Program-made: the position numbers and the translations under genes
Shown: in pieces, positions 4,182-22,209 of the stretch
Position numbering within the stretch: position 1 is the first letter of the stretch
Layout of the letters: every line of letters starts with the position of its first letter
The notes under the pieces: model-generated
What the model saw: only the letters and a program-made list of their open reading frames with translations
Database searches by the model: none
Told to the model about the DNA's origin: nothing
IMG/VR virus record: IMGVR_UViG_3300042406_001684
Span: 1 to 22,569 of that record
Origin: a virus
Strand: one strand, 5' to 3'
DNA: 22,569 bases

Positions 4182-7100
4182 ATGGCAGCTACTCCTGAGC
4201 AAATAAAAAATACTGAAAAACTTGTAGCTTTATTAAAAGAAGCAGTTGAGTTATCTCAAAGATTAGGTGATACCTCTGGTGCTAGAAGATACAGTGAAGC
4301 TATAAAGGAAGCTAATAAAGCTACCTCAACTACTAGTGATGACCTCAAAAGTATGACTAGAGAGGTTAATGATTTAAAAAGAGAATGGAAAGAATTTAGT
4401 AGTGATTTAAGTGGAGCTAGAGCTAGTTTTAACTCTATATTAGATTCTATAAATAAATCTAACACAGTTGTAGGACAAGTCGTTACCTCTGTTAAAAATT
4501 TAGGTAGTATAGCTAGTGATTTACAAAGCATCCAAAGTGGGTATACTGAGTTAAATGAGAAAAATTTATCTCAAGTTAAAGAAAAAACTCAAAGAGAAAA
4601 ACTTAGTTTAGAAATTGGAAGAAATCTTTTAGAATTTAAAAAAAGTGAGATTGAACAACAAATTGAACTTAATAGAAATATAGCTAAAGATTTAACAAAA
4701 AGTGTTGAGGAAAGAAATGAGGCTAGAAAATCCCAAATTGAATTAAATAAAAAACTTAATGAAAATAATCTAGCCCTAGAAGAAACTAACAATTTACTAA
4801 ATGAAGAAAATTCAGGATACCAGGCTTTATTAAAAGTTATAGATCAACAAGAACAAAAATTAAAAACTGTAAATAAACAATTTGGGCTGGGTGGAAATTT
4901 AATTAAAGGTTTAGGTGAAACTTTAAATAAAATAGGACTAGGTGGTTTAGCTAATCAATTAGGTATAGATGAAGCTGTATCTAAAATGAAAGAATTAGCT
5001 AATGAGGGTAAAATGGTAGATGGTGTTTTTGTACCTACAAATAGTAGAGTTAAAATACTATCTGAAGGGTTAAAGTCCATAGGTAAAAGTTTTATAGATA
5101 CTGCCTTTAGCTTTGAATCTGTTTTTAGTTTTATATTAGATGCTACTTTAAAAACTAGCCAAAATATAGCTGATATAAGAAAACAAACTGGTTTTTCTTA
5201 TGGTGAAGCTACAGCTTTAAACGCCGAAATGCAAGGAGTAGCCATAGCTACAGGAGACGCTTTTATTACAGGAGATAAATTAGTTAAAACTTATGCTTCA
5301 TTAACTAATGAGTTAGGCCAGTCAGCTGATATTTTAGGTAATGAAGCTTTAGTTTCAGCTACCCAACTTGAACAAAAGTTAGGACTTTCAGCTAAAGAAT
5401 CAGCTCAATTAACTGTTTTATCTAGATTGCAAGGTAAAAATACTGAAGAGGTATTAGATAATACTGTAGCAGCTGTAGGAGCTATGAACCAGCAAAATAA
5501 AACAGCTATAAATGTGAAAGCTGTTTTAGGAGATGTAGCTAACGCTTCTGAAGCCATTCAGGTTTCTTTAGGTAAAAACCCTAAAGCTATAGCTGAAGCT
5601 GCTACAGCTGCTCGGCAATTGGGTCTTTCTCTCAGTGAAGTAGATAATGTAGCTAATAGTTTATTAGATTTTGAATCTTCAATTTCTAGTGAGTTAGAAG
5701 CGGAATTATTATTAGGACAAGATATAAATTTAGAAAAAGCTAGGCTTTTAGCTTTAAATAATGATTTAAAAGGCTTAAGTGAAGAATTAAATAAAAATGA
5801 AGAGATAAAAGCAGCTTTTGCTTCAGGAAATAGAATACAACAAGAAGCAGCTGCTAAAGCTTTGGGTATGAACCGAGATCAGTTAGCTAAAGTAGCTTTA
5901 CAGCAGGACCTAAATAATATGGCCGCTGAAGAGTTTAAAAATAAATATGGTGAAGCTACATATGAATCTTTAAAAGCTACTTCAGCCTCAGAATCTTTTC
6001 AAGAAGTCTTAACCAAAATACAAAGTGTTTTAGGTCAAATAGGTATGGCTTTTGCTCCTATTTTAGATGCTATAGCAGCTATTGTTAGTTTACCTTTTGC
6101 TCCTCAAATTATAGCAGCAGCCGCCGCAGCTATTCTTTTAGGTAAAAGTTTTAAGGGTGTAACTGAAACTGTAAAAGAAACTTTTAGTACTGTTAAAGAT
6201 TTAGGTAAAGGTATTTTAGATTTTGCCAAATCCGCTTCTGGGGCTGAAGGAGGTATTATGAGTAAAGTTAAAGCAGGGTTTAAAGGGGCTACTGGAGGAG
6301 GTGGGGGTGGTATTATAGAAACCGCAGGGGGTGTAGCTGAAGGAGCTCAATCTGCGGCTGAAGCTGGTGAAAAGGCTAAAGAGTTAGCTGGGATAAAACC
6401 TGATCTTATTAAGGAAACTATGGGAGCTATAGCTGAGGGGATAAAGAGTTTTGCTGATCCTAAAGTTTTAGGAGGAGCTTTGGTACTTCCTATAGCCGCT
6501 GCAGGGCTAATCCTTCTCCTCCCATCTCTCCCAGTTTTATTTGCTATACAACTTTTAAAAGCTGAACCTTTACAAAAGGGGTTAGAAGCTATAGGTAAAG
6601 GATTATCAACTTTAGGTGAAATGTTAAGGGGACCCCAAGCTGCAGCTATAGGTTTAGGTTTAGTTTTAATAGCTGGTTTAGGAGCCGCTTTAATACCTTT
6701 AGCTTACGCTGCTAATTTAGCAGCCCCCGCTATATCAGCTATAGGAGATGTACTAGTATCAGCCTTTACAGGATTAGGAACAGTAGTTGTAGCTGTAGGT
6801 CAAGCTTTAAGTATAATAATATCAAGTGTAGCTGATAGTTTAATCAAAATGGCTAGCCCTGAGATAGCTATAGGGTTGCTCTCTTTAGTCCCAGCTTTAC
6901 TAACTTTGGGACCTGCCTTAGTAGGTTTTGGAGTTGGGTTAAGTATAGCAGCAGCTTCAATGGCTGTAACAGGAATGTTTGGAAATCCTTTAGAAGCTAT
7001 ACTTAAATTAGCTGATTCTTCTTCAAAATTATTAGATGTTAATAATGCTATAACTGGTATGTCTGTAGCTATTCGTGAATTAGCTAATACTCTAGCAGAA

Positions 7101-7603: not shown

Positions 7604-9847
7604 ATGGGTCTTATTGATTTAAAAACAGACTTAAAATCCTTAAAATATGGTAAGGATAAACCTGGGGGGGGAGATAGTAGACAACCTTTTATCAAATCCC
7701 CCATACCGGAAGGATTCTACCCAAAATCTGGGCCTGATTTTCTATTAAGGAATGGATTTTTAAATCCTGTTAGTAGTATTAGAGATGTTTTAAGGATAAG
7801 TAAATTTTTAACTACAGTTGATGGTCTTTTATTTGTAGCTAAACAAGAAGTCTTAGCTTTAACTAATCCTGTAACTATAGGAGGAAGAACTTCAACTAAT
7901 TTTAGACCTGTTTTATATAATCCTTTAAATACTTTAGCCCAAGTAGGGGGTAATTCTATAGGATTCCACACTGAAAGAACTGGCCCCTTCCCAGATATAA
8001 CTAATTTTACTCAAAAATATGAGTATCTTCAAAAGAATTTTTACCAAGGTTCTAATAATAGACTTCAATTATTATTTGAATCTAAAATAAAAGGTAATCG
8101 TACCTCTAATTTTAATGAGGGAAAAGCTAAAGAATTAGGTTTAAATTCAAATGATAGAAATGTTTTATTTGATTATATTGGGGGGCCATCACCTAATGCT
8201 ATTCAAGGGGGTAGAACTAAAATATTAAGAGTTACTTATACTGATAATGAAACAAATCCTAAAACAGGAAATCCCCGCCCTGTTACTATAAATAAAATAT
8301 CATATAGTGGTATAGTTAATAAATATAATTTAGAATATGATTCTAATAACCCAGTTAACCCATTTATATATAAATCAGGTTCTTTAGAAACAGACAATGC
8401 TCAATTAGAATTAAAAAGTAATAGTAAAGTTTTTATTGGTCTTGTTAATTATAGTAAAGCTGTTGGAGCTTCTCAAACTTATTATAGAATAACTGGGATA
8501 GATCCTTCTAGTAATACTTTTAATACAGAAGGTTCTTACTTATATTCTAATAATGTTTACCTCTCAGGATCTCTTAGTCCTAATTTTTTTGTTATTAATA
8601 GTTCTACTCCTAATTATGTGGCTATTAATTATAGCAAAACTTTAGGAGCTAGTAAAAAATATACTACCTACACTGGAGAATCTGTTGGAATTGAAAATAC
8701 TATATCAACTTTAGGTGGATTATTAATATCCCCTAATGTGTATAAACCTAACACATTAGAACCAGATATAGAAAACTTAAATAAGAAAAAAGGATCCCCA
8801 TTTCAATACTTAGGTGGAGATGAAGACAAATTAAAATTATCTTTTTTATATCGAGACCTAACCAATGACTTAACCTTTTCTACAAACGAAGATTTAGGCT
8901 TAGATGGTAATAATAGAGCAACTATAAAAAGTGATGTTTATACTGAATTTCCTAAGACTAGTGAAATAATAGAATCTAATAAAACAGCTACTTGGACTCA
9001 AGAACAATTAATTAATTCTATCCCTGTTTTAAGAGGAAGTACAGCTTTAACTAGTATATCAGATTATAGAAAAAAAGCTAATGAAAATAAACCTAAACAA
9101 ATTCAAGTAGCCTCTGAAGATTATGAGAATTTTAATAGAGAAAAAACTTATTCAGAAGGAAATCCTGGTTTAAGAAACGCTAAAAGAGTTAGTTACACTA
9201 AGGGTCCCCAAGATGTTATAGATGATAGTGAAATAACAAGTGGAAGAGATAAGATTAATTTATACTCAAGTACTGATGTTAGTAATGAAATTGGAGTAGG
9301 AGATATTATTAAATTTAATTTTAGAATTATAAATAATAATTCTTTAAATGATGAATTTATATATTTTAGAGCCTATATAGATGAATTTAGTGATGTTTAC
9401 ACTTCAAATTGGAACTCATATCAATATGTAGGTAGAGCTGAAAAGTTTTATAGATACTCGGATTTTGAAAGAAAAATTACTGTAGGATTTACAGTAGCGG
9501 CCCAATCTAGAGCCGAATTATTACCTATTTATAGAAAAATAAATAACCTTATAGGAGCAATAGCCCCAGATTATAGTCAAGCTGGATTTTTAAGAGGTAG
9601 TGTTGTTAAAATAACTATAGGAGATTATATCACTTCTGAACCTGGTATAATAAATGGTGGGCTTACAATTAGCCCTATTTTAGATGCTGGGTGGGAGATA
9701 GCTAGAAGTGAAGGGGGTAAATTAATAACAGATAGTAATGATATTCAACAACTACCTTTAGCTTTTAAGGTATCAGGTTTATCTATAAATTTAATTCATA
9801 AATTTATACCTAGAAAAGGTCAATCATTTATAGGAAATTCTTTATAA
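7604..9847 (+). CDS. Baseplate tail-tube initiator (gp48/gp54-like)
   Basis: The product is 747 residues. The C-terminal 220 residues look like the tube-like domain of baseplate tube initiators: FIYFRAYIDEFSDVY, WNSYQYVGRAEKFYRYSDFE, RKITVGFTVAAQSRAELLPI, YRKINNLIGAIAPDY, then a GSVVKITIGDYI strand. This domain caps the hub and templates the first tube ring. The N-terminal 500 residues are not recognised; they include an internal duplication at residues 281-327 and 341-388, each starting with NYSK and GAS. The size is about twice T4 gp48 (364) or gp54 (320), so it may combine initiator and wedge or hub-arm functions. The next gene is a LysM adaptor, which fits a baseplate core cluster. The exact T4 counterpart is uncertain. 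The start ATG lies four bases after the upstream stop. Confidence 0.6.
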   Translation: MGLIDLKTDLKSLKYGKDKPGGGDSRQPFIKSPIPEGFYPKSGPDFLLRNGFLNPVSSIRDVLRISKFLTTVDGLLFVAKQEVLALTNPVTIGGRTSTNFRPVLYNPLNTLAQVGGNSIGFHTERTGPFPDITNFTQKYEYLQKNFYQGSNNRLQLLFESKIKGNRTSNFNEGKAKELGLNSNDRNVLFDYIGGPSPNAIQGGRTKILRVTYTDNETNPKTGNPRPVTINKISYSGIVNKYNLEYDSNNPVNPFIYKSGSLETDNAQLELKSNSKVFIGLVNYSKAVGASQTYYRITGIDPSSNTFNTEGSYLYSNNVYLSGSLSPNFFVINSSTPNYVAINYSKTLGASKKYTTYTGESVGIENTISTLGGLLISPNVYKPNTLEPDIENLNKKKGSPFQYLGGDEDKLKLSFLYRDLTNDLTFSTNEDLGLDGNNRATIKSDVYTEFPKTSEIIESNKTATWTQEQLINSIPVLRGSTALTSISDYRKKANENKPKQIQVASEDYENFNREKTYSEGNPGLRNAKRVSYTKGPQDVIDDSEITSGRDKINLYSSTDVSNEIGVGDIIKFNFRIINNNSLNDEFIYFRAYIDEFSDVYTSNWNSYQYVGRAEKFYRYSDFERKITVGFTVAAQSRAELLPIYRKINNLIGAIAPDYSQAGFLRGSVVKITIGDYITSEPGIINGGLTISPILDAGWEIARSEGGKLITDSNDIQQLPLAFKVSGLSINLIHKFIPRKGQSFIGNSL

Positions 9848-9849
9848 AA

Positions 9850-10152
9850 ATGGGCAGATATACTAATATACCAGTTGTAAGATTCCAAAAAGGAGCTAGA
9901 TATTTTGCTGAGGCAAAATACCCAGAAGTGCCTTTATCCCCAAGTGATATATATGTTGTTACTTCAGTAGGAGATAGGCTAGATTTATTAGCTCAACAAT
10001 ATTATGGAGATAATTCTTTATGGTGGGTTATTTCTATTGCTAATACAGAACTACCCCAAAATTCTTTATATATTCCTTTAGGAACCCAATTAAGAATCCC
10101 TACCAATGTAGAAAACATCTTATTCAGTTATAAAAATTTAAATAATGTTTAA
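9850..10152 (+). CDS. LysM-domain baseplate adaptor protein
   Basis: The product is 100 residues. Residues about 35-82 form a LysM domain: YVVTSVGDRLDLLAQQYYGD, then LWWVISIANTELPQNSLYIP and GTQLRIP. Contractile tails carry a LysM protein between tube initiator and hub (P2 gpX, the LysM part of T4 gp53, Pvc7 in injection systems), where it fastens baseplate parts rather than binding peptidoglycan. The gene lies between initiator and hub genes, which supports that role. It starts two bases after the upstream stop, and its own stop shares one base (10152) with the next start. A leader TTTATAAAA stands in place of a Shine-Dalgarno. Confidence 0.8.
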   Translation: MGRYTNIPVVRFQKGARYFAEAKYPEVPLSPSDIYVVTSVGDRLDLLAQQYYGDNSLWWVISIANTELPQNSLYIPLGTQLRIPTNVENILFSYKNLNNV

Positions 10153-13100
10153 TGGCTAACATTTTACAAGAGTCTTTTTCTCCTTATGTAAAAAGACAAA
10201 TCAATATAAGACAACAAAAATTAGGAGCTTTAACTCGAGATAATAATACTTTAGTATTTACAACAAGTAATGCTCCTTTTATTAAACTTACTTCATCGAT
10301 AAATGTGACAGCTAATAAATGTCGAGAAATAGGTTTACCTGATAGCTTTTCAGGGAATAATTTAGCTGAAAAATTTGTTTTATTTGGAGGAACAGTTGAA
10401 GAAGACCATTCAGGTTCACCTATTTTAAAAAGTGGTGTTGCTTCTAGTTATAATGATTTTAATAATTCATCTTATGGATTTTTAACTACTAGTGATTATG
10501 GATTAATTCCAATGCCTGGTATTACTAGTATTGATGTTAAATCTTTAAATAGAGGTTCTTTAAGAGAATGTACTATAAATATAACTTGCCATAGTAAACA
10601 ACAATTTCTTATTATTGAAACTTTATTTTTAAGATTAAAATATAGTTTTTTATTAGAATGGGGACATTCTGTTTATTTTAAAAATGATGGAACTCTTTCA
10701 ACTGAAAATTTTTCTAATAGTAGTTTATTTTTAGGAGGAGGTGATGGTGATGTTAGTGATCAAAATTATATTCTTAAAACTTTAGAAACTTCTAGAAACC
10801 AATCAAATGGTAATTATGATGCTTTTTTAGGATATGTTAAAAATTTTAATTGGACTCTTCGTCCTGATGGTGGTTATGATATAACTGTTTCAGGTATAAC
10901 ATTTGGGGATGTTATAGAATCTCTCAAAATGAATGTTTTAAGATATGATGATGCTGATGTTGAAGAGCAAAATGAAGAAGAAGCTAATTTAGAAGGCCCT
11001 CCAATAGAAAAAGATAAAAATAGAACTACATTAAACCAAATATTTTATGCCCTTAAAAAACTTTCAGAAGAATCAGATGGACTTTTAACAGAAGAAAGTT
11101 TTGTTATAATAGATGAAGTTACATGTTCTAAGTTAAAAGAACTTATACCTTCTCTCCCAGATGTTAATTTAGCTAAATATGCTGGGAGTAAGTTTATAAA
11201 TAATGGTGATGCTCCTATAACACAACCTCAACCTCAACCTCAACCTCAACCTCAACCTAAAACTCCCTCACAAACCCAAGTTCAAGAAGAAGGTTTTTTT
11301 AGTTCTGTTGGGAATTTTATTAGTGAGACTGTTGAAGCTGTTGGAGAGTTTGTTAGTGAGGCTGTTGAAGCTGTTGGAGAATTTGTTAGTGAGGCTGTTG
11401 AAGTTGTTAAAGATTTATTAGAAGAAGATCCATCAACTGATCCTAACAGTAACATTGGAGGATTAAGAGAATATGTAAGAGTAGAATTTTCATTTGATGA
11501 TGAAAATACTGGTGAAGAACAAAGTTATTTAAAATTAGGAGCTCTTTTACGTCTAATTGAGATGTATATGTTATATTATGATTCTAGTAGAGGCTCTGAT
11601 GTACCTATTATAAATATACAATGTGATTATGGTTTAACAGATAAATCAAATGGTACTTATTGTTTTAGATTACCTGAAACTTTCTCAACAGATCCTAGAA
11701 TTTGTTTAGTACCTATATCAAATGAATATTTAGATGGAATAAAAAATAATCAAGGTACATGGAATTGGATTGTTAATGAGGATCCTGGTACTAGTTTAAC
11801 AACATTTAATAATGCTTTAGGTAATGGTTTTAATTCTATGGATTCTCCATATGTTGGGAATATAATGCATATACATGTTAACCTAAACTTTGTATCTAGA
11901 GTGTTAAATGAAAACATAGATGAAGATGGTAATATCTCATTACTAAACTTTATAAACAATATCCTTTCAGAAATTCAACAATCTTTAGGAGGAATAAATA
12001 AATTTTCAGCCATTTTTAATGAAGATACTAATTCATTTAATATAATAGATGACACTTATATACCTGGGTTGAGGGAAGCTTTAAGTAAATCTAAAGTAGA
12101 AGAACCTGCTAGATTTAATGTTAATATTTTAAAAGAAAACTTTGGAAGTTTTGTTGAAAGTGTTTCTATAAAATCTGAGATAACTAAGAATATAGCTAAT
12201 ATGATAACAGTTGGAGCCCAAGCTAATGGTAATGCTGTTGGAGAAAACGCAACTGCTTTTAGTGAATGGAATGTTGGATTAATTGATAGAATAATTAAAG
12301 AAAAACAAGATAGAACTAGTTCAACTACTACAACTGAGGGTGAAGAAAGTAGTAAAAAAACTCCTGAAGAAGTTTTCGCTGAAAATGCTAAAAAGATTTA
12401 TAATTATCTTTTAACTTATATACAATTAAAAGTAGATGAAGAAGATGTAGAGAATTATAAATCAAACTCTAAATCATATTTTAATTATATTACTGGGCAA
12501 TTAAGTCAAAAAGGTTCTGATGGTTCACCTGCCAAAATCCCAGCTATAGGGTTTATTCCTTTAAGTTTAGATATTACTATGATGGGTTTAAGTGGAATGA
12601 AGATATATCAAAAATATTCTATTAATGAAGATCTTTTACCTCCTAATTATGTTAATAAAATTGAATTTTTAACAAAAGGAATATCCCATAAAGTTGATAA
12701 TAAAGGATGGGTTACTTCTATTGATGGTCTTTCTATTCCTAAAAACATAGACGCTAAAACATCCCAAACCCGGACTAAAACATTTAACAGTTCAGCTTTA
12801 CCCTCTAATTCTACAGGTCCTTCATCTAATTCACTTTCACAACCTAATACTTCAAACTCAGCAGCTGCTCAATCTCAAGGAAATTGTTCTACTTTATTAG
12901 CTTCTTCTCCTAAATTCGCTGGAGAACCTCTTCCAAAGTTTAAAGCGGCCAAAGGAAATAATCCTGTAGGATGGACTTTATTTTATGGCCCATTAGGGAA
13001 TAGTCCTGGGGCTATTACATCTAGATTTACAGGTATCAATCCTAGACAAGATATAAAAAGAGCTGCTCCTCATAGAGGAATTGATATAGATATCATTGGT

Positions 13101-13595
13101 ACTGCTACTAAATATCCTCTTTATGCTGTTTGGGATGGTACTATAACCAATGTAAGAGCTCAAGGAGGTAACGGATCAACAGGAGGAGGATTTTATATTG
13201 TAATCCAAATAGATACAAATTCATTAAAAAATGATGCCCCCTACTTATACAACTCTTTAATATCTGAATTGGGTAGAGATAAAAATGATAAAAGGTTTAG
13301 AGTTAAAGATGGAGCTAAACTTTATGCTGTATTTATGCATTTAGAAAAAGCTAATAGTGGACTTTTACCCTGCTTATCTCCAGATTTAACTGTAGGATCT
13401 TCTTTTAAAAGAGGCCAATTACTAGGTATAGCAGATAATAGTGGAGGATCAACAGGAGCACATTTACATTTTCAATTACATACTGTTCCTAAAACTGATA
13501 ACTGGAACTCTTGGCTTTTTGGAGAAAATGAACAAAGAAATCTTTCCCAAATTGATCCTACAAATTGGATATATATAAAAGGACGTAATACTTAA
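10152..13595 (+). CDS. Baseplate hub protein with C-terminal M23 peptidase
   Basis: The product is 1147 residues. The N-terminal 250 residues (STINCHSKQQF-like strand region, then LRLKYSFLLEWGHSVYF) resemble a gp27-type hub. Residues about 355-420 are a linker of Pro-Gln repeats followed by three 11-residue repeats of VGEFVSEAVEA type. More hub-like sequence follows to about residue 880, then a Ser/Asn/Thr-rich linker. The C-terminal domain from about 965 is an M23 (lysostaphin-type) zinc endopeptidase: H974 and D978 in HRGID, H1063 in FMHLE, and H1104-L-H1106 in AHLHFQ. All the usual ligand and catalytic positions are present, so it is probably active against peptide cross-links of peptidoglycan during injection. 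In T4 this job belongs to the lysozyme domain of gp5. The ATG overlaps the upstream stop by one base. Confidence 0.88.
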   Translation: MANILQESFSPYVKRQINIRQQKLGALTRDNNTLVFTTSNAPFIKLTSSINVTANKCREIGLPDSFSGNNLAEKFVLFGGTVEEDHSGSPILKSGVASSYNDFNNSSYGFLTTSDYGLIPMPGITSIDVKSLNRGSLRECTINITCHSKQQFLIIETLFLRLKYSFLLEWGHSVYFKNDGTLSTENFSNSSLFLGGGDGDVSDQNYILKTLETSRNQSNGNYDAFLGYVKNFNWTLRPDGGYDITVSGITFGDVIESLKMNVLRYDDADVEEQNEEEANLEGPPIEKDKNRTTLNQIFYALKKLSEESDGLLTEESFVIIDEVTCSKLKELIPSLPDVNLAKYAGSKFINNGDAPITQPQPQPQPQPQPKTPSQTQVQEEGFFSSVGNFISETVEAVGEFVSEAVEAVGEFVSEAVEVVKDLLEEDPSTDPNSNIGGLREYVRVEFSFDDENTGEEQSYLKLGALLRLIEMYMLYYDSSRGSDVPIINIQCDYGLTDKSNGTYCFRLPETFSTDPRICLVPISNEYLDGIKNNQGTWNWIVNEDPGTSLTTFNNALGNGFNSMDSPYVGNIMHIHVNLNFVSRVLNENIDEDGNISLLNFINNILSEIQQSLGGINKFSAIFNEDTNSFNIIDDTYIPGLREALSKSKVEEPARFNVNILKENFGSFVESVSIKSEITKNIANMITVGAQANGNAVGENATAFSEWNVGLIDRIIKEKQDRTSSTTTTEGEESSKKTPEEVFAENAKKIYNYLLTYIQLKVDEEDVENYKSNSKSYFNYITGQLSQKGSDGSPAKIPAIGFIPLSLDITMMGLSGMKIYQKYSINEDLLPPNYVNKIEFLTKGISHKVDNKGWVTSIDGLSIPKNIDAKTSQTRTKTFNSSALPSNSTGPSSNSLSQPNTSNSAAAQSQGNCSTLLASSPKFAGEPLPKFKAAKGNNPVGWTLFYGPLGNSPGAITSRFTGINPRQDIKRAAPHRGIDIDIIGTATKYPLYAVWDGTITNVRAQGGNGSTGGGFYIVIQIDTNSLKNDAPYLYNSLISELGRDKNDKRFRVKDGAKLYAVFMHLEKANSGLLPCLSPDLTVGSSFKRGQLLGIADNSGGSTGAHLHFQLHTVPKTDNWNSWLFGENEQRNLSQIDPTNWIYIKGRNT
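11223..11258 (+). repeat. Six tandem CAACCT hexamers (Pro-Gln linker)
   Basis: Six uninterrupted copies of CAACCT inside the hub gene encode an alternating Gln-Pro stretch. It is an in-frame microsatellite, so copy number can change by slippage without breaking the frame. It marks a flexible, extended linker in the protein. Confidence 0.95.
11307..11405 (+). repeat. Three tandem 33-bp repeats (11-residue helical unit)
   Basis: Copies at 11307-11339, 11340-11372 and 11373-11405 encode VGNFISETVEA, VGEFVSEAVEA and VGEFVSEAVEV. Copies two and three differ by only two bases, and copy one is more diverged, pointing to stepwise duplication. The 11-residue period suits a right-handed coiled coil or amphipathic helix. 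Confidence 0.95.
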
Positions 13596-13598
13596 AAA

Positions 13599-14216
13599 AT
13601 GCCTTATTTTCCAAAAAGTCGAATTCAAACTAATTTATATACTGCCGGAGGTGAATATATTATAGCTTCCACAGGTGAGCACTATATTGGCCCTTATTAC
13701 AAATTATTTAATGGGCTAGTTTTTACCGGTAAAACCCCATATGATGGTGTCAGTAAAAGACTATACCCAGAATATGATGGAGGAAAAGATATAACTAATG
13801 TTCCAATTGATCAACAATTAACTTTTTTAAATCCTGAGTCTGATAATTATAATAAAATTTTAAATAAAGGAAAAATTAGTCTTGAAATATACCCACCTCA
13901 ATATATAAAACCCAAACCTACATCTACAAATTACCAATTAGGAGAATTTACTAGATATTTTTTTAAAAAAAGAAACGAGTTAATCTATATTGAAACTAAT
14001 GAAGAAAATTATAACAATGCTATAAAAAATAAAAAAGGTAGTATATATGCTTTATATAAACCTTTTAAACTTAATTGGAAATTAACTGGGGATGAAAAAG
14101 AAGTATGTAGGATAAATACTTCTATAGTATTATTAAAACAAAAAAAAGACAATTTTCCTAAATTAAGTTTATTTTTAAAAAACTCTTTAGAATTTTATAT
14201 ACCTAACAATAATTAA
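13599..14216 (+). CDS. Unknown protein at end of baseplate operon
   Basis: The product is 205 residues, basic and rich in Tyr, Asn and Lys. The N-terminus MPYFPKSRIQTNLYTAGGEY and following YIGPYYKLFNGLVFTGKTPYDG are Gly/Tyr-rich and look like a beta-structured virion protein. No catalytic motif, signal peptide or membrane helix is visible. It starts three bases after the hub stop with the leader ACTTAAAAA, so it is expressed with the baseplate genes. I cannot assign a family. A baseplate or tail accessory role is inferred from position only. Confidence 0.75.
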   Translation: MPYFPKSRIQTNLYTAGGEYIIASTGEHYIGPYYKLFNGLVFTGKTPYDGVSKRLYPEYDGGKDITNVPIDQQLTFLNPESDNYNKILNKGKISLEIYPPQYIKPKPTSTNYQLGEFTRYFFKKRNELIYIETNEENYNNAIKNKKGSIYALYKPFKLNWKLTGDEKEVCRINTSIVLLKQKKDNFPKLSLFLKNSLEFYIPNNN

Positions 14217-14256: not shown

Positions 14257-15507
14257 ATGTTTTGGTTAATAGAGACAGAAGAGAAGTTAAGAGAGTTTAG
14301 GGAGAAAAAGTTTAAGAAAGTATTTGTAGAGATAATTTCATTAAATAATAAAATTCACCCTACACAAAATGATATTTCTTGTATCTATATTAGAGAAATA
14401 GATGATAATAAAGGATATATAGTATCTATCAATCACTCTGAATCTCTCCCTATAGATATACAACATATCTACCAAACACTCCAGGGATTTGAGGAGATAT
14501 TTGTTAGAGATAAGAAGGAATTCCTACATTATTTTCTATTAAAGCAAGTTAGTGATTTGTATTTTATATCACCTTTTGATATACAAACTCAACTCCCTAT
14601 TTATGACCATTTTTACAACCAATATTCTAATATAGGTAATATAAACTCAATCATTCCTATAGTTAAACATTATGAATATTGTGAGCTAATATTTTTTCAG
14701 GTAAAACATATTTTTAACCTTGAGAAACCACCATACTTTGAATTTTACAATAATAAAGCCACTTCAGTATTTTGGTGGATTGAACAAGAAGGCATTAAAG
14801 TAGATCCTATTTTATTTAAGGAATATTTTGGAATTAAGACAGATAAAACATTCACCCAGTTCAATCTTAAAACTACTACAACTCGTCCTTCAAATAGTTT
14901 TAATAATATTAACTATGTTGCCTTAGATAAAAAATCAGGTTGTAGAGACGCGTTTATAGCCGAAAATGATTTTCTATTAGAAATAGATATTAGTGCTTAT
15001 CATCCTACTATTATAGCTCAAATGATTGGGTATAAGTTTGAACATGATGATATTCATCAATCATTTGCTGAGATGTATGGAGTTGATTATCAAACTTCTA
15101 AGGAACTTACATTTAAACAATTGTATGGTGGTGTATTTGAGGAATATAAAGAATTAGATTACTTTAAAAAAGTAGACCAATACTTAGAAGACTTAAATTC
15201 TAAAGAAGAAATAGTCTGTAAATCAGGATATGTTTTTAAAACTAAAGAGTTAAAAAAACAAAAATTACTTAATTATATCCTTCAAAACACAGAAACATAC
15301 TACAATATTCTTATTTTAGAAGAAATAATAAAAATTATTAAAAGTAAGAACACTAAAATAATTCATTATACTTATGATTCCTTTTTATTTGATGTAGATA
15401 AAACCGAAAGAGATATAATTGAGACTATACTAAAAGTTTTTAAAGCTTATGATTTTAAGGTAAAAATGTCTTGGGGGGTCAGATATGGTTCTCTAAAGTC
15501 CGTGTAA
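14257..15507 (+). CDS. Short family A DNA polymerase, degenerate exonuclease region
   Basis: The product is 416 residues. Family A polymerase motifs occur in order: a Thr/Arg region equivalent to TGRLSS (KTTTTRPSNSFNNINYVAL), CRDAFIA, motif A with D244 in LEIDISAYHPTII, motif B with K282, F286 and Y290 (spacing K-x3-F-x3-Y as in Pol I K758/F762/Y766), and motif C with D374 in HYTYDSF. In motif C the usual HDE is YDS. The first 150 residues lack clear DEDD exonuclease acids; a strand VFVEII sits where DxE is expected. The protein is far shorter than Pol I (928) or T7 polymerase (704), so thumb and fingers are reduced. It likely performs genome replication and needs a separate proofreading exonuclease. 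I recall, unchecked, that phage RM378 splits polymerase and exonuclease. T4 itself uses family B gp43. Confidence 0.82.
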   Translation: MFWLIETEEKLREFREKKFKKVFVEIISLNNKIHPTQNDISCIYIREIDDNKGYIVSINHSESLPIDIQHIYQTLQGFEEIFVRDKKEFLHYFLLKQVSDLYFISPFDIQTQLPIYDHFYNQYSNIGNINSIIPIVKHYEYCELIFFQVKHIFNLEKPPYFEFYNNKATSVFWWIEQEGIKVDPILFKEYFGIKTDKTFTQFNLKTTTTRPSNSFNNINYVALDKKSGCRDAFIAENDFLLEIDISAYHPTIIAQMIGYKFEHDDIHQSFAEMYGVDYQTSKELTFKQLYGGVFEEYKELDYFKKVDQYLEDLNSKEEIVCKSGYVFKTKELKKQKLLNYILQNTETYYNILILEEIIKIIKSKNTKIIHYTYDSFLFDVDKTERDIIETILKVFKAYDFKVKMSWGVRYGSLKSV

Positions 15508-15562: not shown

Positions 15563-15949
15563 ATGAATAATAAATTATTTTGCACTTTTACTACGCTAGA
15601 GGGTTTGGATGACCTAGTGCAAGAAATACAATATAATTACGACATACTTTATAATAAAATTTTTATCCTTTACATAAAAAGTAATGATGAGTATGTCTGC
15701 ACATACAACGTAGACCCCGCTAGTATGAATAACGTATTACCTAATACTATACTAGTTCATAGAAAGAAAGAATCTAATACGCTTTATACAATAAATGCAC
15801 TAAATGAGTTAATAAAGCGATTAAATGGAGGAGTTGTTGATATTTATTATAAAGTGAATTGGCAACATTATAAGAATACTATATTGTTGACTCAACATAA
15901 TGAATTAAAACAACTAAAAACTAAAATACATCAAATAATAGAATTATGA
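15563..15949 (+). CDS. Unknown protein between polymerase and SSB genes
   Basis: The product is 128 residues. The N-terminal half alternates strand-like segments (KLFCTFTTLEGLDDLVQEI, NKIFILYIKSNDEYVCTYNV), followed by NTLYTINALNELIKRLNGG and a C-terminal basic helix. It has two cysteines, no metal motif and no membrane segment. The 55 bp before it hold no other gene. Its last four bases overlap the next start (ATGA), indicating translational coupling. I do not recognise the family; it does not look like T4 RegA or UvsY. Its place in the replication block suggests a replication or gene-control role, by position only. Confidence 0.75.
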   Translation: MNNKLFCTFTTLEGLDDLVQEIQYNYDILYNKIFILYIKSNDEYVCTYNVDPASMNNVLPNTILVHRKKESNTLYTINALNELIKRLNGGVVDIYYKVNWQHYKNTILLTQHNELKQLKTKIHQIIEL

Positions 15950-16836
15950 ATAATTTTGACTTAAGAAAGTATTTGGCTGAAGGAGGTTTAAAAGCCAGAC
16001 TAAACGAAAACTTAGACCCAGACCCTGAGCTCTATCCTGATGGTTATGATTTTGGAGATTTAGATGAAGGAGAAGATAAAGATGTAGAAAAAATAGCTAA
16101 ACTTTTCCTTGAAGAAGGAGATAATGACTATATGGAAGAAGCTATAACTGACGAAGAAGTCAATGAATCTTTCTTAGATGAAATGGCTCGTACATCAAAC
16201 ACTTTTATGTTAGCTAAAGATGCTAGTACAGCTGATGTTAGATCTTTCATGAATAAAGTTAATAACCTCCTCAAAACCTATAAATCACCAGGTCAGAAAA
16301 AACCAAAGAGCAGATTTACTCCTGAGGATATGGATAGATTAACTAGTGTTTTAAAGAAAGCAAACTTTACTTCTAAAGAAGTATTAGATGCTATTGAAGG
16401 ATGGAATAACTCAGCTCAAGCTAATACCTTTCTTAAAGTTCTCCAAGATAAAGGATATATATTAATTACCTCAGAACTAAAGAAATTTAGTAAACCTGAA
16501 AGAGATCCTAATGCTCCTGAAACCAGAGGTAGAAAAAAGAAAGTAAAAGATGATGATGGAGAGGATAATAAAAAAGGAGATAAAGAACCTACTGACGCTC
16601 AAATCAAAAAAGCAGCTAAAAAAGCTGGTTTAGATGAAAATGATAGGTTCTTAAATGAATTTTTAAAAAAAAAACTTTTAAGTGAAATTCAATCTGAAGA
16701 GGAAGTCGCTGATTTATTAGATGATTTTTATCAAGAAAGAATAAACACTTACCCAAATGTTGAAACATTTGCTGATGAAGTAAGAACAGCCTTAGATGCT
16801 CTTACTATGAAATATAGCGATGATGTTGATATGTAA
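15946..16836 (+). CDS. Acidic/basic unknown protein with AT-hook-like patch
   Basis: The product is 296 residues. It opens MNNFDLRKYLAEGGLKARLNENL, then a very acidic stretch (about 25-70), a helical middle (FTPEDMDRLTSVLKKANFTS, then KEVLDAIEGW), and a basic low-complexity region. The patch ETRGRKKKVK (R194-G195-R196 and Lys) resembles an AT-hook, so DNA binding is possible. A further Lys/Asp-rich segment and an acidic C-terminal domain follow. No enzyme motif is visible. The ATG overlaps the upstream stop by four bases, and a strong terminator 21 bp after its stop ends the unit. I cannot name the family; a scaffold-like or nucleoprotein role is possible but not shown. Confidence 0.75.
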   Translation: MNNFDLRKYLAEGGLKARLNENLDPDPELYPDGYDFGDLDEGEDKDVEKIAKLFLEEGDNDYMEEAITDEEVNESFLDEMARTSNTFMLAKDASTADVRSFMNKVNNLLKTYKSPGQKKPKSRFTPEDMDRLTSVLKKANFTSKEVLDAIEGWNNSAQANTFLKVLQDKGYILITSELKKFSKPERDPNAPETRGRKKKVKDDDGEDNKKGDKEPTDAQIKKAAKKAGLDENDRFLNEFLKKKLLSEIQSEEEVADLLDDFYQERINTYPNVETFADEVRTALDALTMKYSDDVDM

Positions 16837-16934: not shown

Positions 16935-17750
16935 ATGGATTTAAATGCAATTAAAAGTAAGTTGAATTCCCTTCAACAACAACAAACTAAGGGAGGTGGA
17001 ACAGACAAAAACATTTTTTGGAAACCAAGTGTTGGTAAACAAGTAGTTAGAATTGTTCCTAGTAAATTTAATAAGTCTAATCCTTTTACTGAGGCTTATT
17101 TTCATTATGGAATTGGAGCTCGTACAATATTTTCTCCTCTTAATTATGGAGAAAAAGATCCAATTGTAGAATTTGCTAAACAATTACGTCAAACTAGTGA
17201 TAAGGAAAATTGGCGTTTAGCTAAAAAATTGGATCCTAAAATGAGAGTATTTGTACCTGTTATTGTTCGAGGTGAAGAACATGAAGGTGTAAAATTGTGG
17301 CAATTTGGTAAGGCTTTGTATCTTGAAATGTTGAGTATGGCAGATGATGATGATATTGGTGATTATACTGATATTATGTCTGGTCGTGATATTACTGTAG
17401 ATACAATTGGACCAGAATCAACAGGTACAGCTTATAACAAATCATCAGTTAGAGTTCGTACTAAACAAACTCCACTTTCTGAAAATAGTAGTGAAGTTGA
17501 AAAATGGTTAAATGAACAAAAGAATCCTCTTGATTTATTTCAAAAGCATACTTTTGATGAGATTAAAGATTTCCTTCAAGAGTTTTTAAGCCCTGAAGAT
17601 GAGGCTAAAGAAGGAGATATCATTGATGATGAAACATCAGAAGATGAGAGTGATCTCCCTTTTGATAAAGGGGTGTCCCAAACAAATTACAATTTGAAGG
17701 CACCCCTAAAACAAAATAAACTTGATAAATTTGATGAACTCTTCAGCTAA
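16935..17750 (+). CDS. gp32: Single-stranded DNA-binding protein (gp32-like)
   Basis: The product is 271 residues, against 301 in T4 gp32. It coats single-stranded DNA at forks and recombination intermediates. The core begins FWKPSVGKQVVRIVPSKFNK and continues through RVFVPVIVRGEEHEGVKLWQFGKALYLEML, matching the gp32 OB-fold pattern. The C-terminus is strongly acidic (IIDDETSEDESDLPFD and LDKFDELFS), as expected for the domain that recruits partner proteins. There is no cysteine in the whole protein, so the structural zinc site of T4 gp32 (one His, three Cys) is missing; the matching segment reads NYGEKDPIVEFAKQL. The N-terminal cooperativity region is short and Gln-rich. The stop overlaps the uvsX start by one base, coupling SSB and recombinase. 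Confidence 0.88.
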   Translation: MDLNAIKSKLNSLQQQQTKGGGTDKNIFWKPSVGKQVVRIVPSKFNKSNPFTEAYFHYGIGARTIFSPLNYGEKDPIVEFAKQLRQTSDKENWRLAKKLDPKMRVFVPVIVRGEEHEGVKLWQFGKALYLEMLSMADDDDIGDYTDIMSGRDITVDTIGPESTGTAYNKSSVRVRTKQTPLSENSSEVEKWLNEQKNPLDLFQKHTFDEIKDFLQEFLSPEDEAKEGDIIDDETSEDESDLPFDKGVSQTNYNLKAPLKQNKLDKFDELFS

Positions 17751-18826
17751 TGGCAAGAAAAAAATCACTAACTGAAGCAGTCTCTTCAGAATTACAATCA
17801 GGATTTGACCTAAATAAATTTAAGGAGAAAAAACTTCTTAAATCAAATGTCAAATTTAAAGACCAAGCTTGGATTCCTCTTTCTCAAGCATTCCAAGATG
17901 TAACTTCAATTCCTGGTATCCCTATGGGTCATATAACCTTACTTAGGGGCCACTCTGATACGGGTAAGACAACCGCCTTGATTGAGGCGGCTGTCTCTGC
18001 CCAAAAGAGAAATATACTCCCAGTATTCATCATTACAGAGATGAAATGGAATTGGGATCATGCTATACAAATGGGACTTGAAGTTGATCTTAAAGTAGAT
18101 AAAGAAACAGGTGAAATAAATGACTATGAAGGTTTTTTTATTTATGCTGATAGAGGATCACTAAATACAATTGAAGATGTAGCCGCATTTATTTTAGATT
18201 TAGTAGATGAACAAAAGAAAGGTAATTTACCTTATGATCTATTATTCCTTTGGGATTCTATTGGATCTGTTCCTTGTGAACTCTCAGTTCGTTCTAATAA
18301 AAACAATAATGAATGGAACGCTGGAGCTATGAGTACTCAATTTGGAAATAATGTTAACCAAAAGATTCTACTCTCAAGAAAAGAATCATCACCATATACT
18401 AATACATTAGTTTGTATTAATAAAGTATGGACAGCTAAAGCTGAAACACCTATGAGTCAACCAAAATTAATGAATAAGGGAGGTTGGGCTATGTGGTTTG
18501 ATGCTACTTTTGTAGTAACATTTGGTAATGTTTCTAATGCAGGTACATCTAAAATTAAAGCTATTAAAGATGGTAAACAAGTAGAATTTGCTAAACGTAC
18601 TAATCTTCAAATTGATAAAAACCATATTAATGGAGTAACAACTAGAGGTAGAATAATAATGACACCCCATGGTTTTATCAATGATACTGAAAAAGAACTT
18701 AAAGTTTATAAAGATGCTCACTCAAAGGAGTGGAGTCAATTACTTGGAGGTATGGATTTTAATGTTATTGAAGAAGATTCAGAAGATATTCAAGACATAA
18801 CTTCATATACTGAAGAACCAGAATAA
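17750..18826 (+). CDS. uvsX: UvsX/RecA-like recombinase
   Basis: The product is 358 residues (T4 UvsX 391). It is the ATP-dependent strand-exchange protein for recombination-dependent replication and repair. The Walker A motif is G67-H-S-D-T-G72-K73-T74-T, closer to the RecA consensus than the unusual T4 version. The Walker B region is LLFLWDSIGSVP with D169. The segment LMNKGGWAMWFDATFVVTFG matches the UvsX core after the DNA-binding loops. A short acidic C-terminal tail (EEDSEDIQDITSYTEEPE) is present. The start ATG shares a base with the SSB stop. The exonuclease gene starts two bases after its stop. Confidence 0.92.
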   Translation: MARKKSLTEAVSSELQSGFDLNKFKEKKLLKSNVKFKDQAWIPLSQAFQDVTSIPGIPMGHITLLRGHSDTGKTTALIEAAVSAQKRNILPVFIITEMKWNWDHAIQMGLEVDLKVDKETGEINDYEGFFIYADRGSLNTIEDVAAFILDLVDEQKKGNLPYDLLFLWDSIGSVPCELSVRSNKNNNEWNAGAMSTQFGNNVNQKILLSRKESSPYTNTLVCINKVWTAKAETPMSQPKLMNKGGWAMWFDATFVVTFGNVSNAGTSKIKAIKDGKQVEFAKRTNLQIDKNHINGVTTRGRIIMTPHGFINDTEKELKVYKDAHSKEWSQLLGGMDFNVIEEDSEDIQDITSYTEEPE

Positions 18827-18828
18827 AA

Positions 18829-19866
18829 ATGGGCAAAAAAGAGTACCTTGAAATGCTCAATAAAATTGAGCAGGGGAATGATTCACCTCAATTAAATAGA
18901 CATGATAGGGTCTTGGTTATAGATGGTTTAAATTTATTTTTAAGGAATTTTGCTGTACTAAATTTTGTAAACGAGGAAGGTACTCATATTGGAGGTTTAG
19001 CTGGTTTTTTAAGGTCTTTAGGTTCTCTTATCAAACAGATTCAACCAACATCTGTTTACATTATATTCGATGGAGTAGGTTCTTCCACTAATAGGAAGAA
19101 CTTACTCCCCGAATATAAATCAGGTAGAAATGTTAGGATTACTAATTGGGACATATTTGAAAACCTTGATGACGAACATGACTCTAAAGTAGACCAAATA
19201 GTACGTCTAATCCAGTATTTAAAATGCCTCCCAGTTAAAGTCATATCAATCAATAAGTCAGAAGCGGACGATGTTATTTCCCACTTATCTACAACTTTAG
19301 ATAAAGAATATAATTCTAGAGTTGTAATAGTATCAAGTGATAAAGACTTTCTTCAACTAGTTAATGATAATATTACAGTCTATAGACCTATAGAAAGAGA
19401 TTTTTATGATACTAAAACTGTAATTGATAAGTTTGGTGTTCCTCCTCATAACTTTATTTTCTATAAAACCTTAGTTGGAGATACTTCAGATAAAATCTCA
19501 GGTGTGAAAGGTGTTGGAAATAAAGGTGTATTGAAAAAATTTCCTGAATTAGCTGGAGATAGATTAGAACTTCAAGACATATATGATCTAAGTGTGAAAC
19601 GATTAAAAGAAGGAGTAGTATACGCTCGGATTCTTCATGACTGGACAAGTGTTGAAAATCATTATAAAATTATGGATTTAGGTAATCCACTTTTAGATGA
19701 TAATGAAAAAGAATTTATAGATAATAAAATTAAAGAAAAAGTAGCTAGTTTACGCGTATTAGATTTCTTAACTTTATATAATGAAGATGGGTTAAACCAT
19801 ATAATTAAAAACACTGAATTTTGGGTTAAAGACACTTTTTCTAATTTAAAGATTTATGACGCTTAA
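18829..19866 (+). CDS. rnh: 5'-3' exonuclease / flap nuclease (T4 RNase H-like)
   Basis: The product is 345 residues (T4 RNase H 305). It removes RNA primers and flaps from lagging strands. The FEN-type metal-site acids are all visible: D32 in VLVIDGLNLF, D81 in YIIFDG, E145-A-D147-D148, D171 and D173 in SSDKDF, and D218 with D221 in GDTSDKISGVKGVG, which leads into the helix-hairpin-helix. The basic region between D81 and E145 (NRKNLLPEYKSGR) matches the helical arch. About 25 extra residues precede the first strand. The gene begins two bases after uvsX and overlaps the helicase start by 11 bp, so both are probably translated from one mRNA. Confidence 0.92.
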   Translation: MGKKEYLEMLNKIEQGNDSPQLNRHDRVLVIDGLNLFLRNFAVLNFVNEEGTHIGGLAGFLRSLGSLIKQIQPTSVYIIFDGVGSSTNRKNLLPEYKSGRNVRITNWDIFENLDDEHDSKVDQIVRLIQYLKCLPVKVISINKSEADDVISHLSTTLDKEYNSRVVIVSSDKDFLQLVNDNITVYRPIERDFYDTKTVIDKFGVPPHNFIFYKTLVGDTSDKISGVKGVGNKGVLKKFPELAGDRLELQDIYDLSVKRLKEGVVYARILHDWTSVENHYKIMDLGNPLLDDNEKEFIDNKIKEKVASLRVLDFLTLYNEDGLNHIIKNTEFWVKDTFSNLKIYDA

Positions 19867-21214
19867 TACTTTACAATCATACGGTACTGGTTTTCAAATC
19901 AAAGTACTATCTTCATTACTTACTCATAAAGAATTCCTCCAAAATATCCATGATGTTTTGAGTGACGAATACTTCGATAACCAAGCTCATAAGTGGGTTA
20001 TTCAACAGATTCTCCAATATTATGATAAGTATCACACCACTCCTACAATGGAGGTATTAAAAGTTGAAACTAAAAAAGTAACTAATGAGGTACTACAAGT
20101 ATCAATTAAAGAACAATTAAGAGAAGCTTATCAATCATCTGAAGATGATTTAAAATATGTTGAGGAAGAATTTTCTAATTTTTGTAAAAATCAACAATTA
20201 AAAAAAGCACTTTTAAGTTCTGTAGATTTATTGAATGCTGGTGATTATGACTCTATTAGAATATTAGTTGATAATGCTTTGAAGGCTGGTGGAGATAAAA
20301 ACTTAGGCCATGAGTATAATAAAGATACTGAATCTCGATATAGAGAAGAATCTAGAATTATAGTTCCAACACCTTGGGAAAAGTTTAATAATATAATGCA
20401 AGGTGGTTTAGGTAATGGGGATTTTGGATTAATATTCGGCAACCCGGGAGGTGGCAAATCATGGACATTAGTTGCCTTAGGAGGATATGCTGTTAAATTA
20501 GGATTTAATGTTCTCCATTATACTCTAGAGCTAAGTGAAGATTATGTAGGTAGAAGATATGACGCCTATTTTACTGATATAGGTGTTGATTCTATTTCTA
20601 AACATAAAGATAAAGTTCAATCCTTAGTTGATAAATTACCAGGCCAACTAATTATTAAAGAATTTGCCACAGGTAAAGCAACTATTCCAATGCTTAAATC
20701 ACATATACAAAAATGTATTGATTTAGATTTTAAACCTGATTTAATTCTAATTGATTATGTTGATCTTCTTTCTTCAAGAAAACGAGTTCAAGATCGTAAG
20801 GGAGAAATAGATGATATTTATATAAGCACTAAAGGATTAGCTAAAGAGCTCCAATTACCAATCTGGTCAGTTTCTCAAGTTAATCGCGCAGGTGCAAAAG
20901 ATAATGTCATTGAAGGTGATAAAGCAGCTGGTAGTTATGACAAAATCATGATTACTGATATAGCTATATCGCTTTCAAGAAAAAAAGAAGATAAAGTAAA
21001 CGGTACTGGTAGATTTCATATAATGAAAAATAGATACGGAATGGATGGAATGACTTTTTCAGTTAAGGCTGATACTTCAACAGGTCACTTTGAAGTTCTG
21101 GATGAACACTTTGATGACGATAACGAAACACCAGTAAGAAAAATTGAAGGAACCGATTTTAATACTTTAGACAGAGATCTTTTGGCTCAACAATTTTTTC
21201 AACTTAGCTTATAA
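19856..21214 (+). CDS. gp41: Replicative DNA helicase, DnaB/gp41 type
   Basis: The product is 452 residues (T4 gp41 475). It is the hexameric 5'-3' helicase at the fork. An N-terminal helical domain (about 1-150) with TPTMEVLKVETKK precedes the RecA-fold motor. The Walker A motif is G195-N-P-G-G-G-K201-S202, the Walker B motif is DLILIDYVDLLS with D300, followed by the helix GLAKELQLPIW and the sensor segment SVSQVNRAG. The C-terminus has FHIMKNRYGMDGMTFSV, typical of DnaB helicases. No primase domain is fused. The ATG lies inside the end of the exonuclease gene (11 bp overlap), and this frame is closed soon upstream, so the start is well fixed. NrdB follows after 11 bp. Confidence 0.93.
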   Translation: MTLNTLQSYGTGFQIKVLSSLLTHKEFLQNIHDVLSDEYFDNQAHKWVIQQILQYYDKYHTTPTMEVLKVETKKVTNEVLQVSIKEQLREAYQSSEDDLKYVEEEFSNFCKNQQLKKALLSSVDLLNAGDYDSIRILVDNALKAGGDKNLGHEYNKDTESRYREESRIIVPTPWEKFNNIMQGGLGNGDFGLIFGNPGGGKSWTLVALGGYAVKLGFNVLHYTLELSEDYVGRRYDAYFTDIGVDSISKHKDKVQSLVDKLPGQLIIKEFATGKATIPMLKSHIQKCIDLDFKPDLILIDYVDLLSSRKRVQDRKGEIDDIYISTKGLAKELQLPIWSVSQVNRAGAKDNVIEGDKAAGSYDKIMITDIAISLSRKKEDKVNGTGRFHIMKNRYGMDGMTFSVKADTSTGHFEVLDEHFDDDNETPVRKIEGTDFNTLDRDLLAQQFFQLSL

Positions 21215-21225
21215 CAAACAAAAAA

Positions 21226-22209
21226 ATGGCAAAATCAAATCTTTTGCAGGAGAGAGTCGTCTATAAACCATTCGAATATCCTGAAGCACACGATTACTGG
21301 CTAAAACAACAACAAGCACATTGGCTCCATACTGAAGTACCAATGATGAGTGATATAAATGACTGGAAACAAAATTTAACAGAAACAGAAAAAAATATAG
21401 TTGGTTCTATATTAAAAGGTTTTGCTCAAACCGAAACAATTGTAAATGATTATTGGAGTGGTCTTGTAACTAAATGGTTCCGTAAGCCTGAAGTTATCAT
21501 GATGGCTACCACATTTGGAGCATTTGAAACTATTCACGCTGAAGCATATTCTTTATTAAATGAAACACTTGGACTTGACAACTTCTCAGAATTTCTCGAG
21601 GATGAAGCTACAATGGCTAAAATTGAAAATCTTATGTCTACTAGGGATAATTTCGATGGTGAAGATGATTTGCAAGATATTGCTAAATCACTCGCTATCT
21701 TCTCGGCGTTTACCGAAGGAGTTAATTTATTCTCTTCGTTCGCCATCTTATTATCTTTTAAAATGCGAAATAAACTTAAAGGGGTCGGCCAAATTGTTGA
21801 ATGGTCTATTAGAGACGAATCAATGCACTCCGAAGCAGGATGTTGGTTATTCAGAACACTTATCAAAGAAAATCCTCACCTCAACACTCCGGACCTCAAA
21901 ACAGCGATAAATGAAGCAGCTTTATTATCTCTAAAATTAGAACTTGATTTTATTGATAAAGTTTATGAGTTAGGAGATCTTGAAGGTTGTTCTAAAGATG
22001 ATTTGGTTGCCTTTATTAAAAATAGAGTTAATACTAAATTAGGAGATTTAGGTTATGGACCTATCATTGATGGAATTGATACCAATGCTCTTAAAAGAAT
22101 GAAATGGTTTGACTCTCTATCAGCAGGTAAACAACACACAGATTTCTTTGCCTCAAGAGTAACTAATTACTCAAAGGGACATTTACAGTGGGACGAATCA
22201 ATATTTTAA
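21226..22209 (+). CDS. nrdB: Ribonucleotide reductase class I, small (beta) subunit
   Basis: The product is 327 residues. It holds the diiron-tyrosyl radical cofactor for dNTP synthesis. Visible ligands are E70 (AQTETIV, probable first ligand), E101 and H104 (FETIHAEAY), E164 (FTEGVNLF), and E198 with H201 (RDESMHSE). Y108 lies four residues after H104, as in E. coli Y122 after H118, so a tyrosyl radical is likely. The C-terminal tail HLQWDESIF would dock on NrdA. The start has the leader AACAAAAAAATGG and no Shine-Dalgarno. The nrdA gene follows after two bases, so the subunits are made from one mRNA. Other frames through this gene are shadows. Confidence 0.95.
   Translation: MAKSNLLQERVVYKPFEYPEAHDYWLKQQQAHWLHTEVPMMSDINDWKQNLTETEKNIVGSILKGFAQTETIVNDYWSGLVTKWFRKPEVIMMATTFGAFETIHAEAYSLLNETLGLDNFSEFLEDEATMAKIENLMSTRDNFDGEDDLQDIAKSLAIFSAFTEGVNLFSSFAILLSFKMRNKLKGVGQIVEWSIRDESMHSEAGCWLFRTLIKENPHLNTPDLKTAINEAALLSLKLELDFIDKVYELGDLEGCSKDDLVAFIKNRVNTKLGDLGYGPIIDGIDTNALKRMKWFDSLSAGKQHTDFFASRVTNYSKGHLQWDESIF

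Follow-up and report, generated by a model that had tools for sequence, protein, structure and literature searches.

The T4 replisome contains one polymerase. Among the accessory polymerases of family A, Pol theta and Pol nu possess an inactive exonuclease domain; both keep the thumb and carry insertions, not deletions. In Pol I the thumb grips the duplex. A viral accessory gap-filling polymerase without a thumb is DNA polymerase X of African swine fever virus (PMC5330486). It shows that a repair polymerase may do without a thumb, but it belongs to family X and, with its unrelated fold and host, serves as an analogy only. A direct homologue of the protein described here is gp001 of Flavobacterium phage Immuto (31% identity over 95%, same operon), listed in GenBank as 'DNA polymerase family A', so that the family assignment as such is not new. 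The Immuto genome, however, also encodes a 777-aa PolA, gp199, with an exonuclease domain.

Searches of the open-access literature found no study of Immuto gp001 and no description of the missing thumb, of a main polymerase beside the short one or of the operon, and the 2020 paper on Baltic Flavobacterium phages does not mention Immuto. A survey of Far-T4 phages covers phages of related appearance and discusses their DNA polymerases, queuosine genes and phoH; the short polymerase is absent from its account (PMC4360716). The queuosine genes and phoH of Immuto resemble those of the Far-T4 phages (PMC4360716); QueC, QueD, QueE, QueF, FolE and a DpdA-like DNA guanine transglycosylase are annotated at 18607–37015 of NC_055915.1, which suggests that Immuto DNA contains 7-deazaguanine. 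A PolA survey of viromes demanded a DNA_pol_A domain match of at least 325 aa at 1e-10, a threshold that the short family would probably fail.

The window, i.e. the whole stretch of 22,569 nucleotides analysed here, corresponds to positions 1–22,569 of the IMG/VR virus record IMGVR_UViG_3300042406_001684 and is probably a fragment. At 14257–15507, on the plus strand like its domains and motifs, g205, g128 and the genes for gp32, UvsX, flap nuclease, helicase and nrdB, it encodes a 416-aa protein which sequence, profile and predicted fold identify as a short family A DNA polymerase, exonuclease-dead and thumbless. The reading frame is real and under purifying selection (dN/dS of about 0.12–0.17 between close relatives); conservation, dN/dS and fold together exclude chance. 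Contractile-tail genes (sheath, tube, tape measure, baseplate) precede g205 (13599–14216), a conserved gene with no assigned function found in 197 of 218 loci. One of the tail proteins (1147 aa, 10152–13595) bears a metallo-endopeptidase/endolysin-like domain at its C-terminus. The polymerase is followed by g128 (15563–15949), which codes for a conserved 128-aa protein also without assigned function, a variable 296-aa gene, a gp32-like single-strand DNA binding protein (16935–17750; Pfam gp32 1.1e-11, PHROG_1192 8e-20), a UvsX-like recombinase (17750–18826; PHROG_97 5e-14), a 5'-3' exonuclease or flap nuclease (18829–19866; Pfam 5_3_exonuc_N 6e-34), a DnaB/gp41-type replicative helicase (19856–21214; PHROG_19 2e-77) and the ribonucleotide reductase small subunit nrdB (21226–22209; Pfam 6e-65). 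The Pfam and PHROG matches thus bear out the first-pass annotation, which had placed gp32, UvsX, a flap nuclease and a gp41-type helicase next to the polymerase.

This operon is nearly invariant. Counted over loci with enough flank only, g128 is the next gene in 215/216 cases, and gp32 (168/168), UvsX (130/130), the flap nuclease (105/106), the helicase (93/94) and nrdB (51/55) recur in the same manner. The 296-aa gene between g128 and gp32 (15946–16836) is a variable insertion, present in 6 of 197 testable loci.

At least 543 IMG/VR stretches were confirmed as encoding relatives of the short polymerase; 312 relatives were counted in the Immuto clade and 109 in the Microcystis-phage clade, all of them sets from IMG/VR that may overlap. 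The family comprises more than 500 viral contigs. Among 50,697 annotated phage records clear homologues occur only in Immuto, in Microcystis phage Mel-JY01 and in LR756508, a 484-kb uncultured phage; Pelagibacter phage HTVC033P gave one further match, a weak one (E 0.9). Bacterial MAGs contributed only five matching contigs, and the LR756508 protein as query retrieved no relatives from IMG/VR. Complete homologous reading frames fall into a tight range of 403–452 aa, and the small size is therefore a feature of the family and not a truncation. In the record of Mel-JY01 (PP395634.1) the flap nuclease (55792–56832) is labelled 'DNA polymerase I' and the real short polymerase (50397–51623) 'hypothetical protein'.

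Taken alone, the window protein gave a weak single-sequence match to PHROG_17 "DNA polymerase" (E 2.7e-6, residues 197–407) and one to PHROG_15971 "DNA polymerase I" (8e-4); a Pfam search with it matched no family, and a single-sequence PDB search returned chance matches only. With PF00476, Immuto gp001 reaches 42.7 bits at a cut-off of 34.3, whereas the window protein and the homologues from contig L030, Mel-JY01 and LR756508 stay below it. Profiles were required: with one built from 127 sequences the only PDB matches were Pol I-type polymerases (best E 0.006).

Alignment with E. coli Pol I confirms the motif residues D244 (A), K282, F286 and Y290 (B) and D374 (C) that had been read from the 416 residues beforehand. 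Motif A (D244–H249, DISAYH, 14986–15003) retains D705 of the E. coli enzyme as D244, while its steric-gate residue E710 is replaced by an invariant histidine, H249. In motif B, the O-helix (Y278–G291, 15088–15129), K758, F762 and Y766 are kept as K282, F286 and Y290, and R754 is changed to Y278. Motif C (Y373-D374-S375, 15373–15381) keeps D882 as D374 between two replaced neighbours, H881 (Y373) and E883 (S375). Outside these motifs R668, N845 and Q849 are preserved as R210, N339 and Q343. The four substitutions are family-wide (H, Y, Y and S/A, respectively). Among 42 representatives with less than 70% identity, D244, K282, Y290, G291, Q343, Y373 and D374 as well as H249 are invariant, F286 occurs in 41 and Y278 in 40, and motif C reads YD[S/A], so that the earlier observation of YDS in place of HDE holds for the family with alanine as a variant. 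Judged by the usual marks of family A, the protein shows the two catalytic aspartates in palm motifs A and C and the K-x3-F/Y-x3-Y-G pattern of motif B, but lacks R754, the steric-gate E710 and the HDE of motif C, with Y278, H249 and YD[S/A] instead.

From these sequence comparisons the replacement of E710, R754, H881 and E883 may render the activity altered or weak. It also raises the question of a changed chemistry, in which the enzyme would use rNTPs, make short primers, bypass lesions or synthesise without template, and would serve the start of recombination-dependent replication or damage tolerance. The family-wide exchanges speak for this, as do the dead exonuclease, a trait of translesion family A enzymes, and the adjoining genes for UvsX and gp32; because the steric gate is replaced, a changed nucleotide specificity is a possibility. 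Histidine, however, is still bulky at the steric gate, the long genomes tested have a separate DnaG-type primase, and the profile matched only DNA polymerase I in the PDB, and no RNA polymerase. We rate a changed chemistry as rather unlikely. The YDSF of motif C recalls HDSF, the motif of single-subunit RNA polymerases; kinship with these was considered and rejected, as Pol I accounts for every PDB profile match. A role as primase was likewise dismissed in view of the DnaG-type primase, which is present in all tested records of at least 150 kb (7/7).

Structure prediction, one of the checks that had been recommended, gave an AlphaFold2 model of high confidence (pLDDT 94.4, pTM 0.91) which matches Pol I large fragments along the whole chain. 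In a VIA-align comparison against the PDB, residues 1–414 of the model superimpose on residues 300–876 of Bst Pol I with Z 26.1 (390 aligned, 4.0 Å rmsd). Every listed Foldseek match in the PDB is a family A polymerase (E 7e-16), the best being apicoplast Pol, Taq, Pol I, Pol nu and Pol theta; the two accessory polymerases named above thus appear among the structural matches. Motifs and predicted fold together support the initial description, namely a family A polymerase that is reduced in size and lacks a proofreading site. Similar to the large (Klenow-type) Pol I fragments of Bst, E. coli and Taq, the protein shows the whole-chain fold, motifs A, B and C and the catalytic aspartates; in contrast to their approximately 540–605 aa it has 416, with the thumb deleted, the fingers shortened and E710, R754, H881 and E883 replaced.

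Residues 1–160 (14257–14736) correspond by structure match to Bst Pol I to a 3'-5' exonuclease-like domain without the DEDD acids. In the region of the ExoI D-x-E motif most sequences read [E/I/V]-x-[I/L/V/F], with a hydrophobic residue in place of the second acid, and the family conserves no set of acidic residues. According to the model, the N-terminal third is a vestigial Pol I exonuclease fold that has lost its catalytic acids. The Bst and Taq fragments likewise retain the fold of the exonuclease domain without its active site. The first-pass annotation was right in stating that DEDD acids are absent from this third; the region is, however, not empty. In a sequence-profile comparison residues 1–160 alone gave no alignment with Pol I exonuclease domains, and the residue register of this domain is therefore uncertain.

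The largest loss concerns the thumb and had gone unnoticed in the first description of a short polymerase, which was correct as to size. Measured from the conserved glutamate E176 (E541 in E. coli) to the arginine R210 (R668), the junction that stands in place of the thumb subdomain (residues 176–210, 14782–14886) spans 34 residues in the window protein and 23–43 across 275 homologues; E. coli Pol I has 127 residues there and the full-length PolA of Immuto 217. No helix is present between residues 192 and 228 of the AlphaFold2 model. The Pfam DNA_pol_A profile matches the short Immuto enzyme only from position 103 and the full-length one from position 25. A further reduction (53 vs 83) concerns the segment between motif B and Q849. 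The short polymerase is hence a divergent family A homologue without a thumb and not a canonical member.

The short gene had initially been interpreted as the replicative polymerase itself, a non-orthologous replacement of gp43 that depends on an exonuclease in trans. Such a replacement fits the location of the gene among those for gp32, UvsX, flap nuclease and helicase in the replication operon, and no other polymerase is found within the 22.6 kb of the window. To see beyond this fragment, 33 records with the short gene were searched for polymerases of families A and B. A separate full-length polymerase was found in 23 of them and in 16 of the 17 records of at least 100 kb, although some of these 17 contigs are closely related and do not represent independent lineages; the contig of the lone exception (G014) ends about 4 kb beyond the short gene. 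The first-pass annotation itself had named a full-length polymerase at another place in the genome as contrary to its proposal; the relatives show just that, the window itself being only a fragment. In Immuto the second polymerase lies 37 kb downstream of the short gene and carries PF01612 exonuclease and DNA_pol_A domains. The Immuto clade thus has a full-length family A enzyme as companion; in the window's clade the short polymerase shares its genomes with T4 gp43-type family B enzymes (PHROG_262), which differ from it in polymerase family, are full-length or split and have their own exonuclease domain.

In L310, L313 and L314 the gp43-like companion is unsplit, with 860–909 aa; in L311, L312 and L315 it is divided into two parts of about 560 and 308 aa. 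The first half from L315 matches PHROG_262 at 1.6e-116 together with the exonuclease domain PF03104. The split, at L315:2711–4390 + 4653–5576 and likewise in L312 and L311, lies between KxxxNSxYG and the YxDTDS motif C and belongs to the nearest clade of the window, the other clades having the unsplit form. L010 and L052, the nearest relatives on long contigs (62–65% identical), carry the gp43-like enzyme in two genes, and a family B exonuclease domain was detected in the contig of L010. After the PolB of the nearest long relatives, at the position where the sliding clamp is expected, lies a conserved gene that codes for about 250 aa. In LR756508 the family B polymerase is distributed over two reading frames about 3 kb apart (L317:3364–6414 + 9423–11285); intein-like sequence at the break suggests a split intein, and the gp44-like clamp-loader frame at 12679–14001 also looks intein-bearing.

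A maximum-likelihood tree places the window in a group of five rows with the PolB-bearing L010 and L052 (support 100/100). All rows with PolA group in a single clade, flanked on both sides by PolB-bearing rows; the tree is unrooted and L037 sits on a long branch. With a root outside the Immuto clade, the tree would imply an exchange of the main polymerase in that clade and retention of the short one, the reverse of the original idea. An exonuclease in trans is not required either, since the main polymerases scanned have proofreading domains of their own. The search for a stand-alone RNase_T/DEDD exonuclease (PF00929), which had also been suggested, was negative in 11 of 12 genomes, with LR756508 as the only match. 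Besides this absence and the full-length companions, the gp43-like PolB and putative clamp gene of the nearest long relatives as well as the missing thumb and exonuclease site argue against a replacement of gp43, which is largely refuted in the relatives already and which we regard as highly improbable. As a full-size polymerase is present in nearly all long relative genomes, the short one looks like a dedicated second enzyme.

The constant neighbour g128 and the short polymerase share their distribution among annotated phages, each being present in the same three kinds. Its product is strongly conserved but matches no family. The predicted model (pLDDT 93) has a ferredoxin-like N-terminal half, with weak structural matches (Z 6.9), and the protein is a possible partner or regulator of the short polymerase. 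Two specific functions were rejected: a thumb provided in trans, as the model is alpha/beta with a ferredoxin-like first half (weak, Z <7) and not a helical thumb, and a RegA-like translational repressor, for which a PDB profile search gave no match. The strict pairing with g128, the loss of thumb and exonuclease and the several active-site substitutions could also indicate a structural subunit of little or no catalytic activity that is kept for protein contacts, such as a factor for DNA binding or for loading of the main polymerase. Across 127 sequences, however, both metal-binding aspartates and the equivalents of K758, Y766, N845 and Q849 are invariant, which would be unexpected if catalysis were lost; a structural subunit is in our view quite unlikely. 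Unlikely, too, is that the proteins constitute a new thumbless family A subfamily with rebuilt nucleotide pocket (His steric gate, Tyr for R754, YD[S/A]) and g128 as dedicated partner, performing a chemistry beyond gap filling, e.g. rNTP use, synthesis of very short primers or lesion bypass, within the UvsX/gp32 recombination–replication module.

We consider it fairly probable that the short enzyme is a second, accessory family A polymerase of a large group of T4-like phages, distributive and non-proofreading. Bulk, proofread replication would then be performed by the other polymerase, gp43-like family B in most clades and full-length family A in the Immuto clade. Primer extension is the most likely activity, because the enzyme keeps the residues with which Pol I binds metal (two aspartates) and the nucleotide (a lysine and a tyrosine). 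Without a thumb a weak hold on DNA and the addition of few nucleotides per binding event are to be expected, and without a working exonuclease no proofreading. We infer catalytic activity, low processivity and pathway in this way. The accessory enzyme would carry out short-patch synthesis and fill gaps after removal of flaps or primers; together with the flap nuclease it could resemble a Pol I divided between two proteins for primer replacement. Alternatively, it might extend recombination or repair intermediates on DNA coated with gp32 and UvsX, and the present data do not separate the two. Lying beside replication genes is no proof of gap filling.

Since the main polymerase varies between families B and A while the operon position of the short one does not change, a distinct, non-redundant task can be argued for the latter. 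The short polymerase would be one of the smallest family A cores in nature and, as far as found, the first without a thumb; such a core would test how much of Pol I catalysis needs. A conserved second polymerase in hundreds of contigs of aquatic T4-like phages would change the view of the T4-type replisome.
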